The notes under the pieces: generated by a model | Database searches by the model: none | Told to the model about the DNA's origin: nothing | What the model saw: only the letters and a program-made list of their open reading frames with translations | In this document: positions 1,807-59,032 of the stretch, in pieces | Layout of the letters: every line of letters begins with the position of its first letter | How positions within the stretch are numbered: position 1 is the first letter of the stretch | Assembly: GCF_001278035.1 (NCBI RefSeq) | Contig: NZ_CP009453.1 | Coordinates: 1-64,000 of the forward strand | Reading direction: 5' to 3' | Source of the DNA: Sphingopyxis sp. 113P3 | Lineage (GTDB): Bacteria; Pseudomonadota; Alphaproteobacteria; Sphingomonadales; Sphingomonadaceae | Length of the DNA: 64,000 bases | Translations under genes and position numbers: made by a program

Positions 1807-2202
1807 CTATTCGGGCGCCCTCCCCTCCCCTTCGGCCAGATCGATCAGCGCCATGATCCCGTCCGGGAGGCTGAGGTTGCGGTCGTCGCACCAGCGCACG
1901 AGGCGGTCGCGCTCAGGAGGCGACAGGCGCATGCTGATATGGAGCGACCGGGCCGGACCGCGCTGGGGCTTGCGCTTGGGTGTGACGCCGAGATCGGCAG
2001 TAACCTGCGGAAAATAGTTGGCTGGGAGCGCCGATCCGGCGGGTTCGCGTTGGACTGGCGGCGTGCTGGCAGGTTTGGGCGCGGCTGTAGCGGCAACGAG
2101 CCCGCGGAGACGATCGGCGGGCGCTTCTGGCTGCTCCAGGCGCTGCCGTGTCGATCCGATGATGTCGCCCATGCTGCTCACGGCGGCTTTTTCTTCAGGC
2201 AT
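1807..2202 (-). CDS. Small partition partner protein (ParB-like, RHH-type)
   Basis: This is a 131-residue protein with a disordered Ala/Pro-rich N-terminal half and a C-terminal module of about 45 residues that reads like a ribbon-helix-helix fold (RSLHISMRLSPPERDRLVRW, then a second helix). It follows parA directly. Its ATG lies 8 nt inside the end of parA and is served by a strong AAGGAGG within parA, so translation is coupled. In type Ib partition systems the second gene encodes the centromere-binding protein. That role is inferred here from size, order and fold. The second module at 57-58 kb has the same arrangement. Confidence 0.65.
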   Translation of the reverse strand: MPEEKAAVSSMGDIIGSTRQRLEQPEAPADRLRGLVAATAAPKPASTPPVQREPAGSALPANYFPQVTADLGVTPKRKPQRGPARSLHISMRLSPPERDRLVRWCDDRNLSLPDGIMALIDLAEGEGRAPE

Positions 2203-2881
2203 CGACTGCCTCCTTGTTCTGAATTTCGCTGAGAATATCGGCGAGGACGCTTTGCGCGATGCGGCGCGCTTTCTCCGTCTTGGCGAGGTTGGCAGCTTCG
2301 ACCTCAGCGAGGGTCATCCGGTAGTTCGACATGGCGCGAAAGGCGTCGAGGGTGAACATCTGGTCGGTGAAGGTCGGGAGAGCTTTCCTGATTTGACCGT
2401 CGATCTCCCACTCGGCTTTGGAGCGGGCCACCTGCCCTGTCTGGGTGATGAGCACGCGGTATGGGACGCCGCGGCACATTTTCTCGAGCATATCGCTGGT
2501 TTCGACGGTTCGCTCGAGATCGAGCCGCGATGACCGTGTCGGGATGACGACAAAGTCGGAATCCATAGCGGCATAGGCGGTCTTGAAGTTCGACGTTCCC
2601 TCGGAATCGACGACGACGAGCTGGGCCGCCTCGCGCGCTCGTCCGATCGCGGCACCGATATCCGAGTCCCGCAGCTGCGAGGCGTCCTCGACGGCGATGC
2701 GCGAGTCCCCTCCCCTGCCCGCTGCGATCCGATCCCGGTGCCAGTTCAACAGGCTGTTTTGACGGTCGGCGTCGAGCATGAACACCGAGCCGCCCAGTGC
2801 CTCGAATTCCGATGCGAGGGCAAGCGCAAGCGTCGTCTTGCCTGCTCCACCCTTGCTCTGCGCGATAGTGATGACTGGCAC
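2195..2881 (-). CDS. parA: ParA-family partition ATPase
   Basis: A small ParA/MipZ-like ATPase of 228 residues, lacking the N-terminal HTH of P1-type ParA. The deviant Walker A KGGAGKTT lies at about residues 10-17, followed by the ADRQNSLLNW loop and the VVVDSEGT Walker B segment. The longer open frame begins at 2944, but I chose GTG at 2881 because the deviant Walker A then sits at the usual distance from the N-terminus and AGGGAG lies just upstream. It should form the nucleoid-bound gradient that moves plasmid copies, with the overlapping downstream gene as its DNA-binding partner. Short ParA plus tiny partner is the type Ib pattern. Confidence 0.85.
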   Translation of the reverse strand: MPVITIAQSKGGAGKTTLALALASEFEALGGSVFMLDADRQNSLLNWHRDRIAAGRGGDSRIAVEDASQLRDSDIGAAIGRAREAAQLVVVDSEGTSNFKTAYAAMDSDFVVIPTRSSRLDLERTVETSDMLEKMCRGVPYRVLITQTGQVARSKAEWEIDGQIRKALPTFTDQMFTLDAFRAMSNYRMTLAEVEAANLAKTEKARRIAQSVLADILSEIQNKEAVDA

Positions 2882-2953
2882 GAAATAGCTCCCTGTGGGT
2901 CGCGGGCGCGGCACCCATGTGACGTGGCACAGGCAGCGCGGCACAATTGATCT

Positions 2954-3193
2954 GCGCTTCTCATAGCGCCTGTGTAAGCGCGGTGCAAGGCGACCGCGCT
3001 ACTGACCGCGCTGGGAATGGCACACGCGCAACAGCAAGCGCCGTTAGCAGCGAGGACGCAAGCGCCAGTAAACGCACAAGCGCACGCGCTGCGGCTCGCG
3101 ATGCCGCACGCGCCAGCGCGCTGCGCCGCGCGAACGCTAGGCAGAGCGCAATCGCGGCACCCAGCGCGTTACAACACGCGGCACATAACGCGG
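2954..3193 (-). repeat. 12-bp-phased GCGC array, candidate centromere of par module 1
   Basis: Upstream of parA, GCGC (or a one-base variant such as GCGA or GCAC) recurs on a 12-bp grid. Positions 2954, 2966, 2978 and 2990 form one run, 2996, 3008 and 3020 a second, and 3026, 3038, 3050, 3062, 3074, 3086, 3098 and 3110 a third. Further copies at 3116, 3128, 3146, 3178 and 3190 keep steps of 6 or 12 for the most part. About one helical turn between cores puts them on one DNA face, as in centromeres bound by RHH proteins. No real gene was recognised here; open frames through it are alanine-rich artefacts of the repeat. 3194-3277 holds nothing recognised. Confidence 0.65.
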
Positions 3194-53761: not shown

Positions 53762-53834
53762 AGAGGAAAGACGAGGGGGATCGGGAAAGGTGTCCGGTGA
53801 AGGTTTCGCCGGGCCATCCACCAGGAGAAGACCG

Positions 53835-55934
53835 ATGACCCAACTGATCCCCCTTTCGAAGCTGCGGCTTTCGGGCAGCAATGTCCGCAAGTCGGGCGCC
53901 ACCTCCATCGAGCAGCTTGCGGCCGACATCGAAGCGCGCGGCGTGCTGCAGAACCTGCTCGTCACGCCGCTGAAGAAGCCGCGCGGCCACTACGCCGTCT
54001 TTGCCGGCGGCCGTCGGCTTGCCGCCCTGCAGCTGCTCGTCGAGGGCGCCCGCATCGATCCCAACACCGAGATCGCCTGCAAGGTGCTCGAAGGCGACGA
54101 AGCCATGCTCAGCGAAACTTCGCTGGCCGAGAATTTCCAGCGCATGGCGATGACGCCCGCGGACGAATGCCGCGCGTTCCAGCACTTCCTCGGCATGGAC
54201 GGCGACGTCGATGGCGTCGCGAAGCGCTTCGGCGTAACCCGCCGCTTCGTCGAAGGCCGCCTGCGGCTTGCTGGCCTTGCTGACCCGGTGTTCGAGGCGC
54301 TCGCCAAGGGTGAGATGACGCTCGACATGGCGAAGGCCTACGCGTCCACCGACGACCAGGCCAAGCAGGTCCGGATCTACGAGCAGTACGCCCGCTACGG
54401 CTACACCACGCCCGACCAGATCCGTCGCGCCATCGCCGGCGATGCCCTGAAGGCCAGCGATCCGATTGCGATCCTCGTCGGCGAAGACGCCTACGTCGCC
54501 GCGGGCGGCACCGTCGAGCGCGAGCTGTTCAGCGAAGACGGTGACCGCTGGTCGGACCCGGATATCGCGCGCGAACTGGCGGGCAAGATCATGGAGGCCG
54601 AGGCCGAACGGCTCGGGGCGGAATCCGGCCTGGCCTGGATCCGCCCGATCGCCAGCTCGCACATCTACAACGCGACCGCGGACCTTCACCGCGTCACGCT
54701 GCCGACCACGCCGCTGACCGAAGCCGAAGAGGCGCGCGTCGAGGAAATCGCGTCGCGCATGGACGACATCGCCGAGCAGATCGAGGCGGGCGGGCTCGAA
54801 GACAATGCGGCCGCGGCCCTCGAGGAAGAGTATCAGAAGCTCGACCGTGAATACGACGAGCTGCAGGACCGTCCCTCGGTCCTGACCGATGAACTCAAGA
54901 CACAGGTCGGCACCTTCCTCACCCTCGCGCCCGACGGCACGATGAAGCTGGAAACCAGCTACTTCAGCGAGACGCCGATCCGCACCGGCGACGACGAGGA
55001 CGCCGGATCGAGCCGGCAGCGCGGCACCGCGGCAGCGCCCGCCCCGGAAGCCGTGGCACCCGGTGGAAAGCCGCTTAGCGCCCGCTTGTCGGACGAATTG
55101 GCCATGCAGCGGCGCGACATTCTCGCCGCGTCGATTCTGGCCAACCCTGCCCTCGCCCTCGATTACGCGCTGTTCGCCATGATCGACGGCAATCGCGGAT
55201 ACGATCGCTATGGCACGACCATGAAGGCGCCGCGGCCGCAGGATCCGGTCATCGGCGGCGAGATGGAGCCGACGCAGGCCCGCATCGCCATCGAACAGGC
55301 CCGCGAGGCGCTGGACAGCAGCTGGATCGAGGCTGGTGACGTCGTCGCGCGCTTCGAAGCCTTCCGAGCACTCGAAGACGACGCGAAGGCTGCCTGGCTC
55401 GCGGTCATGGTCGCAGGGTCGCTCGAGGCGAAGCCCGAGTATTCGGCGACGACCAATCCGCTCCACGCCCGCCTCGCCACGATCCTCGAGATCGACGTCG
55501 CGCAGTGGTGGCGGCCGACGTCGGCCAACTTCTTCGACCGCGTCGCGAAGGGCACGCTGCTCGCGCTTCTGACCGAGGTCGGCGGGACGGTCCTGGCCGC
55601 ACGCTACAGCGCGTCCAAGAAGGGCGAGGTCTCCTCCGCCTGCGAGAAGATCTTCGCCGGCGAAGCGATCACCGAGACCGAGACCAAGGAAGCGGCCCTT
55701 GCCTGGGTGCCCGACGCCATGCGCTTCGACATCGAGCGTCCGACCATCGACGGCCTCTCGGACGACGACGACGAGGCCGACGACACTGGCGAGACTTCGG
55801 CCGACGACACGGATCTCGACCCCGATGCCGATAGCAACGAAGATCCGGATGACGATCCCGCCGACGACTTCGGCGATGACATCAACGACTTCGACGTCGC
55901 GCATCCCGACGAGGCGCTCGAGCCCGCCGAATAG
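53835..55934 (+). CDS. Large ParB-like plasmid protein
   Basis: A 699-residue protein with an N-terminal ParB/Srx domain: LIPLSKLRLSGSNVRKSG, the arginine motif FAGGRRLAALQLL near 60, ETSLAENFQRMAM near 98, and an HTH (VDGVAKRFGVTRRFVEGRLRL). A coiled segment (about 300-370) and an Asp-rich tail (about 640-690) follow. Such ParB-like proteins are common in proteobacterial plasmid accessory blocks with the strawberry-notch helicase and are not the partner of a ParA. ATG 53835 has AGGAGAAG upstream; the frame is open to a GTG at 53790. DNA binding or nuclease activity is inferred. Confidence 0.8.
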   Translation: MTQLIPLSKLRLSGSNVRKSGATSIEQLAADIEARGVLQNLLVTPLKKPRGHYAVFAGGRRLAALQLLVEGARIDPNTEIACKVLEGDEAMLSETSLAENFQRMAMTPADECRAFQHFLGMDGDVDGVAKRFGVTRRFVEGRLRLAGLADPVFEALAKGEMTLDMAKAYASTDDQAKQVRIYEQYARYGYTTPDQIRRAIAGDALKASDPIAILVGEDAYVAAGGTVERELFSEDGDRWSDPDIARELAGKIMEAEAERLGAESGLAWIRPIASSHIYNATADLHRVTLPTTPLTEAEEARVEEIASRMDDIAEQIEAGGLEDNAAAALEEEYQKLDREYDELQDRPSVLTDELKTQVGTFLTLAPDGTMKLETSYFSETPIRTGDDEDAGSSRQRGTAAAPAPEAVAPGGKPLSARLSDELAMQRRDILAASILANPALALDYALFAMIDGNRGYDRYGTTMKAPRPQDPVIGGEMEPTQARIAIEQAREALDSSWIEAGDVVARFEAFRALEDDAKAAWLAVMVAGSLEAKPEYSATTNPLHARLATILEIDVAQWWRPTSANFFDRVAKGTLLALLTEVGGTVLAARYSASKKGEVSSACEKIFAGEAITETETKEAALAWVPDAMRFDIERPTIDGLSDDDDEADDTGETSADDTDLDPDADSNEDPDDDPADDFGDDINDFDVAHPDEALEPAE

Positions 55935-56059: not shown

Positions 56060-57019
56060 ATGCGCAAGCCTTCACGCATTTCCCGCCCGCGCCGCGACAT
56101 CGCCAGCGAAATCACGGCCCTTATTCTGTCAAAGCTCGAAGCCGGCGTCTTGCCGTGGGCGAGGCCGTGGGACCGCACCGGCGGCGGCGGCGGCGGCCGC
56201 CCGCTCCGACATTGCGGCACCGCCTACACCGGCATCAACACGCTGTTCTTGTGGGCCATGGCCGACGCAAACGGGTATAACAGCCGGTACTGGATGACCT
56301 ATCGCCAGGCCCAAGAACTCGGCGGTCAGGTCCGCAAGGGCGAAGCCTCGTCGCTGAGCGTGTATTATTCGCAGATCAGCAAGACCGACACGAACAGGAT
56401 CACTGGCGAGGAGCAGAACCGCGCGATCCGTTTTCTCAAGGCGTACAACGTCTTCAACGCCGACCAGATCGACGGGCTTCCCGCGCATTACTACCCCACC
56501 CCGGCGCCGCCCGAGCCTCGTGAGGAAAGCGCTCACCGCGGCGCTATCGACGCGTTCTTCGACGCAATCCCCGTGGAGGTCCGTCACGGCGGAAACGCGG
56601 CGTTCTTCTCACCCGTTGGCGACTACATCCAGATGCCGCCCCGGGGCGCCTTCCATTCGGACGATCTCTACGCGAGCACCCGCGCCCACGAATCCATCCA
56701 TTGGTCCGGCGGGACTGGCCGTCTCGAACGCAAGTTCGGTAAGCGGTTCGGCGACAACGCCTATGCGTTCGAAGAACTCGTCGCATCGATCGGCCAGTGT
56801 CTGGTCTGCGCCGACCTCGGCCTACCGGGCGAACTTCACGACAACCATGCGAGCTATATCGAGCACTGGCTCCGCATCCTTAAAGGCGACGCGAGCGCGA
56901 TCATCCACGCCGCCTCGAAGGCGGAACAGGCGTTCAACTACCTCAAGGCCTTCCGCCCGCCGGAGGAGCCATGCGACGCGGAGAACCATCGCGCAACGGA
57001 GATCGAAGAGCCGGCTTAA
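56060..57019 (+). CDS. ArdC-type antirestriction protein (ssDNA-binding plus zincin)
   Basis: A 319-residue protein of the ArdC/DUF1738 family. The N-terminal ssDNA-binding domain shows ALILSKLEAGVLPWARPW, YTGINTLFLW and YWMTYRQAQELGGQVRKGE. The C-terminal metallopeptidase-like domain has the zinc motif HESIHW near 214 and FEELVASIGQCLVC with the third ligand. ArdC proteins protect incoming plasmid DNA from restriction. ATG 56060 has AAAGG upstream. It ends 10 nt before the end of the convergent par partner gene. Confidence 0.88.
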   Translation: MRKPSRISRPRRDIASEITALILSKLEAGVLPWARPWDRTGGGGGGRPLRHCGTAYTGINTLFLWAMADANGYNSRYWMTYRQAQELGGQVRKGEASSLSVYYSQISKTDTNRITGEEQNRAIRFLKAYNVFNADQIDGLPAHYYPTPAPPEPREESAHRGAIDAFFDAIPVEVRHGGNAAFFSPVGDYIQMPPRGAFHSDDLYASTRAHESIHWSGGTGRLERKFGKRFGDNAYAFEELVASIGQCLVCADLGLPGELHDNHASYIEHWLRILKGDASAIIHAASKAEQAFNYLKAFRPPEEPCDAENHRATEIEEPA

Positions 57020-57029
57020 CGCCAACTCG

Positions 57030-57404
57030 TCAGGACGCCGGTCGGTCCGCATCGGCAGTCTCTTCCTGCTCCACGAGCTTCCTGAAATCCTCGATCGAAT
57101 TCCACAACGCGCGGTGGCCGCGCTGCTCGGTATACCGCTCGAACCACTCGGCCAATTCCTGGGGAGCCCTGATATACAGGGTCTGAGACGGAGGCGCAGG
57201 CGGACGCTTGCGCCCTCCCCTTCCCGCCGCACCGCTCGGCTGCGTATCGGTCTGGCCACGATCGACATAACCAAGCTGCTCGCCGCGCGCCACGGCATCA
57301 CGCTCGCTGGCCGGATCTACCACGATCGGCCCCCGAGGCAGTCCCGCCTTGTCGATGGTCTTTTCACGCTTCTCTGCGGGCTTTCCGAAACCGAAGCTGC
57401 TCAT
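57030..57404 (-). CDS. Small partition partner of module 2 (RHH-type)
   Basis: A 124-residue protein with a flexible N-terminus (Pro/Arg/Gly-rich) and a C-terminal RHH-like segment (SQTLYIRAPQELAEWFERY, then ALWNSIEDFRKLVEQE). It overlaps the parA stop by 4 nt and has AAGGAGG 10 nt upstream inside parA. It should bind the 12-bp repeats upstream of parA. Same architecture as the partner at 1807-2202, although the sequences are well diverged. Confidence 0.65.
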   Translation of the reverse strand: MSSFGFGKPAEKREKTIDKAGLPRGPIVVDPASERDAVARGEQLGYVDRGQTDTQPSGAAGRGGRKRPPAPPSQTLYIRAPQELAEWFERYTEQRGHRALWNSIEDFRKLVEQEETADADRPAS

Positions 57405-58084
57405 CGGCGGTGATCCTCCTTCAGGCTATCGACAACGGCCTGCGCTAGGCCCTGTGCGTTCTCGATGGCCTTGGGCACACCCGAGGTTTGCGATGGATCG
57501 AGCTCGCTCAACCGAAGACCGAATTCATAAATGTCGCGGTACGCCGCACGCTCGACCACGCCGATCGGAAGCATCGGCAGACCGGCTTGCTCGATCGCGC
57601 TGGTGATGCGCTTCGACGTCTTCGTGGCGAAGGCGGCGCTGTCGCGGCTTCGTACCAACCGGAACGGGATCTTGCGCTCCACCGCCTCTTCCTCCTCCTG
57701 AATGAGGGACACAGCGGCAGCGGCCAGTTCGGCATCGACTGGCGATTGATTGAACGGAACCAGCACCAGGTGCGATCGGATCAACGCGCGCGACATCATC
57801 CGGGACGCCGTGCCCTCGAGATCGATGATGACCATGTCATTCTCGTTGGCGAGCTGCGCGATCGTCTCGATCATCGCGGCTTCCTTTGGTTGAGACGTAA
57901 CAGAATAGGGCAATTCACGCCCCGCTTCGGCACGCTTAGCCGCCCACTTTGTGATGATTCCGTTGGGATCGGCGTCGATCACCGCAACGCTGAGCCCATT
58001 TTCGACCAATTGATCGGCAAGGATCATTGCCAGGGTTGTTTTCCCCGCACCGCCCTTCGAGTTGCTGACCGAGATCACCGACAT
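57401..58084 (-). CDS. parA: ParA-family partition ATPase, module 2
   Basis: A 227-residue ParA. VISVSNSKGGAGKTTLAMIL at the N-terminus contains the deviant Walker A; VAVIDADPNGIITKW and MVIIDLEGTASRMM carry the other nucleotide motifs. ATG 58084 has AAGGAG just upstream. It differs from the ParA at 2195-2881 in sequence, so the two modules are not a recent duplication. Function as for other short type Ib ParAs. Confidence 0.88.
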   Translation of the reverse strand: MSVISVSNSKGGAGKTTLAMILADQLVENGLSVAVIDADPNGIITKWAAKRAEAGRELPYSVTSQPKEAAMIETIAQLANENDMVIIDLEGTASRMMSRALIRSHLVLVPFNQSPVDAELAAAAVSLIQEEEEAVERKIPFRLVRSRDSAAFATKTSKRITSAIEQAGLPMLPIGVVERAAYRDIYEFGLRLSELDPSQTSGVPKAIENAQGLAQAVVDSLKEDHRR

Positions 58085-58113
58085 ACACGCTCCTTATCCT
58101 GCAAGCATTTCAG

Positions 58114-58305
58114 CTTGCAACCATGCAGGCGCAATTGCTTTCGCTCGCGCCTGCGCTTTACCTTGCGCATGCGCATTACCTAGCGCTTTCGCTTTTGCAA
58201 TCCCTTGCGCTAGTGCTTGCGCTTTAGCTTGCGCAATCGCCTGCGCAATTGCTTGCGCATACCCAATCGCAATGCTTGCGCACTTGCTTGCACGTTTGCT
58301 TGCAG
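58114..58305 (+). repeat. 12-bp tandem array CTTGCGCnnnnn, candidate centromere of par module 2
   Basis: The seven-base core CTTGCGC or a one- to two-base variant starts at 58114, 58126, 58138, 58150, 58162, 58180, 58192, 58204, 58216, 58228, 58240, 58252, 58264, 58275, 58287 and 58299. Apart from one 18-bp step after 58162 and one 11-bp step after 58264, each interval is 12 bp. Five bases between cores vary freely. The array begins 29 bp upstream of the parA start. On the minus strand it reads through as an Ala/Gln/Lys repeat peptide, which I take as an artefact of the 12-base period. Confidence 0.75.
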
Positions 58306-58369
58306 AACACCGGAACGCCAGGAGAGGGGAGGGGGGGCGGAAAAGGCGATCAGCTTTGGGAGATCGCCG

Positions 58370-59032
58370 GTGCCACCCTTCACCAGATACGACTTGCCGT
58401 TCCGCTTCGAGCGCGCTCTGCAGCCTGACGCTCTGCGCGTGGTCGCCACCTGCACGATAGCCGTCAACGACGCCATAGCCGACGCGACGAACGCGGGTCT
58501 TGATCCGGAGCGCGATCCCGCCGTCCTTCTCCTTGCGCGCCATTTGGGTAGGGTTGCCGCTGGTCAAGACCCCGAAGCGATGCACGATGAGGACCGGGAT
58601 CTGCGAACCCTATGCCGGAGCCGGATCGCGGCGTTGCGATCGGCCGATGTCCTGATTCCCCTGGTGCGTCGCGGCTTTGCTCATGATGCTCATCTGACGA
58701 AGGTCTATCGAAGCGCCGCGCGCGATCGTCTGCGCGCAGTGGCGCACGCGCTGGATCTGGAAGCAGCCGATTACGACCTGAGAACACGCTCCGATCAAGG
58801 GCCCGTACCGATCATGGATCTTCAGGCGGATCACTTTCGCGTCACGATTGCGCCCGAACGGTTGATGCCGGGCCGCGAAGTCCGCTGGCTCAGGACCGCG
58901 ACCCGCAGGGGAGGGTGGGAGGGTTCAGCGACCACCGGCGAGATCGGCCTTCTCGCCGACATCGGTCAATTAGCGCGGACGCTTCGCCGGACGCTCCACC
59001 TGCCGGTTGCCGTGCAGCCGGTCATTCTCTAA
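58370..59032 (+). CDS. Uncharacterised plasmid protein
   Basis: About 220 residues, mostly helical, with RYDLPFRFERALQPDALRVV, DPERDPAVLLLARHLGRV and a C-terminal LLADIGQLARTLRRTLHLP. I do not recognise the family. The frame is open upstream through the centromere-like array; GTG 58370, with GGGAG upstream, starts after the repeat. It opens a rightward block of plasmid genes. Arg-rich and likely soluble. Confidence 0.55.
   Translation: MPPFTRYDLPFRFERALQPDALRVVATCTIAVNDAIADATNAGLDPERDPAVLLLARHLGRVAAGQDPEAMHDEDRDLRTLCRSRIAALRSADVLIPLVRRGFAHDAHLTKVYRSAARDRLRAVAHALDLEAADYDLRTRSDQGPVPIMDLQADHFRVTIAPERLMPGREVRWLRTATRRGGWEGSATTGEIGLLADIGQLARTLRRTLHLPVAVQPVIL

Follow-up and report, generated by a model that had tools for sequence, protein, structure and literature searches.

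A half-turn GC/AT wave upstream of parA as the probable centromere of a type Ib partition locus in Sphingopyxis sp. 113P3

Contig NZ_CP009453.1 of Sphingopyxis sp. 113P3 (243,437 bp, one of the genome's two contigs) is read here as a plasmid because it carries rep and par genes. Its first 64,000 nucleotides, the window analysed in this work, hold two partition (par) modules. In module 2, the parA gene (57401–58084, minus strand; 227 residues) overlaps by 4 bp the gene of a small partner protein (57030–57404, minus strand; 124 residues), and directly upstream of parA lies an array (58089–58303) in which GC dinucleotides stand on a 6-bp grid, so that GC and AT alternate in a wave of about half a helical turn. 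Judged by its sequence and by its relatives, this array is very probably the plasmid's centromere (parS), conserved, functional and of a known class. We consider it likely that the locus as a whole is a type Ib partition system of the ParF/ParG kind, with the array serving as centromere and probably also as operator of the operon, and with a ribbon-helix-helix (RHH) partner that binds it cooperatively.

Between 58087 and 58272, all 37 GC dinucleotides fall into two of the six phases modulo 6 (24 and 13), a fraction that never exceeded 0.70 when the stretch was resampled 5000 times from a first-order Markov model. The grid slips once, by a single 5-bp step from the GC at 58269 to that at 58274 (58269–58275), and beyond it, the seven GC steps from 58274 to 58302 occupy these two phases again, each moved by one base. 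In all, GC steps in phase extend from 58089 as far as 58302 and form a chain of 28 GC cores some 210 bp long. When the contig was scanned for periods of 5.2–6.4 bp in 10,069 windows of 192 bp, taken in ten pieces, the array emerged as the strongest half-turn-periodic window, with a Fourier power of 11.10 compared to 4.41 for the next and a mean of 1.61.

A first-pass annotation, made from the sequence alone, had described a strongly periodic array at 58114–58305, and this is borne out at the site and slightly beyond it: relative to first-order Markov resampling, self-identity reaches 0.556 at lag 12 (z 7.8) and 0.548 at lag 24 (z 7.6). The 12-bp grid that it proposed, however, is a harmonic of a basic step of 6 bp. 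Identity rises at lags 6, 12, 18, 24, 30, and 36 and falls at 3, 9, 15, and 21; the Fourier spectrum peaks at a period of 6.00 bp and has no significant signal near 12 bp. When the 24 on-grid hexamers of 58124–58267 are permuted, identity at lag 12 stays the same (0.583 observed, 0.584 expected), and the contrast between even and odd multiples of 6 is not significant (p=0.08). Moreover, the CTTGCG-type cores follow one another at 12, 12, 18, 6, 6, 12, 6, 6, 12, 12, 12, and 23 bp, and the intervals of 6 and 18 do not fit a 12-bp grid but stay in register on a 6-bp one. Since B-form DNA has 10.5 bp per turn, 12 bp amount to 1.14 turns and cores so spaced would drift by 51 degrees per step, so that the earlier proposal of one turn per step, with all cores on one face of the DNA, fails. 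The cores are indeed in tandem, but their number, given as sixteen, depends on the definition (13 with a strict pattern, 15 with a looser list of 5-mers); of two phase breaks announced without positions, the GC steps show the one slip described above; and the array begins nearer to parA than the 29 bp reported, with its first GC step at 58089. At this proximal edge, we read an AAGGAG ribosome-binding-like site (58090–58095, minus strand), 5 nt before the parA ATG.

The array has counterparts in related sphingomonad loci. We collected 37 partner-bearing loci, namely that of the window, four plasmid records, L007, and 31 loci on genome contigs; L007 and L029, in which the contig end cuts parA, were dropped, leaving 35 loci with 28 different ParA sequences. 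Over 6.4 kb, the window's locus, L008, and L009 are nearly identical to one another (99.2% and 95.7%). A significant half-turn wave is present in the 230 bp upstream of parA in 31 of the 35 loci (p<=0.015, corrected over periods), and in 32 no other window of the locus is as strongly half-turn-periodic as one in this region. The significance test failed in L004, L018, L030, and L037, and the top-window test in the first three of these; with windows of 96 bp, the array comes first in L004, second in L037, fifth in L018, and 13th in L030. Most loci outside the window's own clade have waves of 5.3–5.75 bp and no 12-bp period, yet keep parA and the partner. Because the wave persists there, the 12-bp rule falls while the centromere reading stands, and because most related loci keep the wave, that reading, first proposed as likely, is by far the best and very probable. 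In L013, the array extends beyond 300 bp upstream of parA in a long run of GCGCAA/GCACAA hexamers, which suggests recent expansion. In L038 (3001–3340), the partner frame stops after 65 residues, unlike in its close relatives L025, L026, and L031; its wave is retained at 5.30 bp.

The two genes fit a type Ib system. ParA is a deviant Walker ATPase (KGGAGKTT from residue 10; Pfam matches VirC1 PF07015, 63.2 bits, and AAA_31) that lacks an N-terminal helix-turn-helix extension or other N-terminal DNA-binding domain, and its 227 residues lie within the range of 192–308 given for type Ib ParAs in the part of the source available (PMC3235114). A profile of five ParA homologues aligns with the structures of a plasmid ParA (5u1g) over profile positions 1–202 and of ParF (4dzz) over 1–197; against the ParA_partition model NF041546, the protein scores 131.8 bits, below the cut-off of 180. 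The downstream gene of the operon, with 124 residues, has the size expected of a type Ib partner (46–131 residues), and overlaps parA as had been noted earlier. The product is predicted to be an RHH protein, with the domain at about residues 72–119, preceded by an N-terminal tail in which a G-[FY]-x-x-R motif occurs; the arginine of this motif, R49, is invariant in the aligned relatives. Neither NCBIfam nor, above cut-off, Pfam gave a match for the protein, a sequence search of the PDB did not identify it as a ParG, and 185 of 7993 candidates scored are relatives at E<=0.001, with no precomputed Pfam domain on the 120 listed. Short repeats upstream of the operon, a further mark of the type, are present in the expected position, their role as centromere being putative.

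The homologous waves differ in length, from 5.3 to 6.0 bp overall, but not in base order. All nine loci of the window's clade (support 91 in a quick ParA tree) have periods of 5.90–6.00 bp, and their partners read [IL]Y[IV]RAP in the presumed DNA-binding strand. Of the 21 readable loci with K-G-P in this strand and a significant wave, 19 have periods of 5.45–5.75 bp; L038 could not be scored for the partner residue owing to its truncated frame. Relative to G, the mean phases in 28 distinct loci are 0.13 of the period for C, 0.49 for A, and 0.63 for T, with a phase concentration Rbar of 0.80, 0.86, and 0.88, compared to 0.28, 0.38, and 0.33 in 84 control windows, although the statistic takes in weak loci too; locus by locus, the order G-C-A-T is visible in 18. 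These phases make the wave strand-symmetric, with a GC dyad and an AT dyad half a period apart. The common base order links both wavelength classes, while no word common to them was found by eye. We infer that the site is such a symmetric wave, with a GC dyad each half turn and an AT dyad midway, rather than a fixed word.

An array so placed might instead be only the autoregulatory operator of the parA–partner operon, with the centromere elsewhere. RHH proteins are often repressors, and the array abuts the parA ribosome-binding site; in addition, control of the pB171 par operon is ascribed to its upstream array, in the part of that account available (PMC7602700). Yet a chain of 28 GC cores over some 210 bp is longer than an operator requires, and the array stands far above every other window of the contig in Fourier power, which renders this explanation improbable.

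We regard it as very unlikely that the genes are a VirC1/VirC2-like pair and the array an overdrive-like transfer enhancer at a conjugation (relaxosome) site. VirC1 is the top Pfam hit of ParA, a relaxase gene starts about 1.5 kb downstream of the partner in L002, and six of the seven partner-bearing plasmid records are typed conjugative or mobilizable. However, ParA scores 62.7 bits against the NCBIfam VirC1 equivalog, far from its cut-off of 313, neither the partner nor the 22 members of its alignment match a VirC2 family, and nearly the whole ParA profile can be aligned with the structures of a plasmid ParA and of ParF. Of the four stretches viewed, each about 5.6 kb long, only one has an annotated relaxase, and among the carrier plasmids one is typed non-mobilizable.

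The period of 6 bp, a multiple of 3, could also arise from an alanine-x dipeptide repeat, given that a frame of 163 residues (58094–58585, minus strand) is open through the array. Seven of 11 loci (the window's, L009, L001, L010, L012, L013, and L014) have at least one stop-free frame over the 220 bp upstream of parA, so that the window on its own could mislead toward coding. But the remaining four (L011, L027, L002, and L034) have stops in all six frames, L011 being in the 6-bp clade; the 5.3–5.75-bp waves of most arrays outside that clade are no multiples of 3, and the wave is strand-symmetric, so that a coding origin can be given hardly any credence. Replication iterons of a second origin, suggested by short tandem repeats on a plasmid and by a rep gene near parA in L003, are just as implausible, as the Rep3 gene found in the window adjoins module 1 some 56 kb away, a rep gene occurs in one of four annotated homologue stretches, and the array tracks parA and its partner.

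The same contig carries a second, distantly related par module, module 1. Its VirC1-like ParA (2195–2881, minus strand) is 28% identical to that of module 2, and the unannotated partner of 131 residues (1807–2202, minus strand) is matched by no Pfam family and does not resemble the module 2 partner in BLASTP; the Rep3 gene (627–1760) adjoins the module. Upstream of this parA lies a weaker GC comb (2935–3135), also with a period of 6.00 bp (p=0.010). By GC phase, with 35 of 41 dinucleotides in phase, it is the second-best site of the 64 kb (z 7.1; third 3.9), whereas by Fourier power (3.67) it ranks seventh on the contig, under the 99.9% level. We fetched five relatives of module 1 from the 25 listed of 165 records. 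The comb peaks at 6.00 bp in L084 (pTK2; p 0.005), L085 (pBAR3; p 0.040), and L087 (Novosphingobium ES2-1 p2; p 0.005). L086 (pSWIT01) shows lags of 12, 30, 42, and 18 with a best period of 11.45 (p=0.055), and L088 has no wave upstream of parA (p=0.194). Large sphingomonad plasmids thus bear a comb of the module 1 type, in L086 less clearly. The order G-C-A-T is the same in L084–L087 and in module 1 of the window as in the module 2 loci. A motif trained on the module 2 homologue arrays has 11 minus-strand matches in the module 1 comb (99.9% level 9) but only 5 plus-strand ones, where the 99.9% level is 8, which makes cross-talk between the modules no more than possible.

More distant relatives use other arrays. 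Among 11 ParA relatives (38–45% identity) hand-picked from the 60 listed of 4078 records, six have other array types upstream of parA: TAGCTA-type words at lag 11 in L074, L076, L078, and L080 (plasmids of Rhodobacterales and Hyphomicrobiales), 24-bp repeats in L081 (Phaeobacter piscinae pS26_106; lag 24, z 6.5), and 36-bp repeats in L082 (Acidisarcina polymorpha pACPOL3; lag 36, z 11.4). The other five (L073, L075, L077, L079, and L083) have no clear upstream array. The partner of the L081 ParA has 185 residues and is without the G-F-x-x-R motif. In a third lineage, that of pUT1 (L089), the annotation of 1133–2052 shows an RHH-domain gene directly beside an AAA ATPase gene, presumably the pUT1 parA. 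Plasmid pPDL2 has a ParA identical to the one in pUT1 and is said to have no parB homologue in the part of its description available (PMC3516476); since the RHH-domain gene adjoins the ATPase gene, it is likely a missed ParB. Next to the window's module 2, a gene for a 714-residue protein with ParB-type domains (53790–55934) is followed by one for an ArdC-type zincin metallopeptidase (56060–57019). The same pair occurs in the Croceicoccus plasmid L005, where the annotation of the stretch shown has no parA next to it.

The anatomy of the locus and the predicted fold support the first step of the most likely mechanism. Dimers of the 124-residue partner would coat the array cooperatively, residues T75, Y77, and R79 of their β-ribbon, which we take to correspond to Q9, N11, and R13 of Arc, reading the GC-containing major groove. 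A two-fold RHH dimer would most simply span two half-turn units (about 11–12 bp), and as units of 5.5–6 bp are tighter than the 7- or 8-bp units of studied systems, one dimer per two units is favored. As a step of 6 bp is more than half a turn of 10.5 bp, the row of dimers would follow a slow spiral round the DNA rather than line up on one face; alternatively, dimers may occupy alternating faces. By analogy with pSM19035 (PMC9499535), TP228 (PMC7308502), and pESBL (PMC7602700), as far as the available parts of these reports go, the partner's flexible N-terminal tails would engage and stimulate nucleoid-bound ParA, with R49 as candidate arginine finger, and so move the plasmid, while occupancy of the array beside the parA start would repress the operon.

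More tentatively, and with somewhat less than even confidence, one may ask whether the centromere is defined by a wave instead of a word, its heritable wavelength (6.0 versus about 5.5–5.7 bp) being tuned to the partner's β-ribbon (R79-A80 versus K79-G80) and fixing the winding of the dimers. If so, letters would drift while wavelength and base-phase order stay, and two distantly related par modules of one plasmid would use the same solution. Several observations weigh against this. R-A-P is confined to one clade and reflects one event, not an independent correlation; L019 (5.90) and L027 (5.95) have K79 partners and do not fit the 5.45–5.75 class; both modules of the plasmid peak at 6.00 bp, which makes it unlikely that wavelength alone gives specificity; and pUT1 has no such wave upstream of parA. 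Finally, the best periods of 5.45–5.90 bp in L074, L075, and L078 are non-significant (p 0.08–0.12), which leaves the architecture without a sharp boundary.

Homology among type Ib ParBs is low and the parS sites of plasmids are highly varied, according to the part of the literature available (PMC7602700); these centromeres and partners diverge fast. The class to which the array belongs is known, but no description of a 6-bp or half-turn-wave centromere, or of this partner family, was found in the accessible portions of the openly licensed literature searched, which does not show their absence from print. Many sphingomonad plasmids carry biodegradation genes. As a half-turn wave of fixed base-phase order is detectable by periodogram without a shared word, it could assist the search for parS sites and unannotated RHH partners in plasmids of sphingomonads. 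The natural series of wavelengths, 5.3 to 6.0 bp, provides a ready test of how dimer spacing affects the partition complex, and the look-alike centromeres of two modules on one plasmid a test case for cross-talk.

Comparison with known systems, drawn from the available parts of the reports cited, places the locus among several relatives. Like parS of pSM19035, bound by the RHH protein omega (ParB-pSM), it combines an RHH partner with contiguous short tandem units. In pSM19035, four or more contiguous heptads are needed together (PMC9499535) and the protein helix winds round unbent DNA (PMC5016525), but its unit is a 7-bp word, direct or inverted, in three parS sites each present twice, whereas here a degenerate, strand-symmetric unit of 6.0 (or about 5.6) bp forms one array. 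Contiguous 7-bp heptads of the delta-omega-parS type are absent from it, the period being 6.00 bp and lag 7 having a z of −1.2. With parFGH of TP228, whose parH is bound by ParG, the locus shares a ParA close to ParF, an RHH partner with an arginine-finger-like N-terminal tail, and AT-rich spacers between boxes (PMC7308502); parH, in contrast, has degenerate tetramer boxes. The type Ib par of pESBL (IncI) likewise has a ParA, a ParB of 100 residues that was annotated just as hypothetical, and short tandem repeats beside the operon, but with an 8-bp word, GATAACAA, in arrays on both sides and apparently one ParB per octamer in electrophoretic mobility shift assays (PMC7602700). In the type Ib parCAB of pMF1 from Myxococcus, whose ParA is most similar to a ParA-like protein of Sphingobium, imperfect iterons are the binding sites of ParB, which represses the operon (PMC3235114); unlike here, the motif is one of 8 bp, AGATGTCT, the sites are scattered along the plasmid, and there is an extra ParC protein. 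The TAGCTA-type arrays of L074, L076, L078, and L080 resemble ours in a ParA 39–44% identical, a homologous partner, and an array at lag 11 upstream of parA, but carry a palindromic word recognisable by eye and no degenerate 6-bp wave, their half-turn periods being non-significant. Finally, the par locus of pTAR of Agrobacterium reportedly has the same layout, with a VirC1-like ParA, a small ParB, and an array upstream of parA at roughly one-turn spacing.
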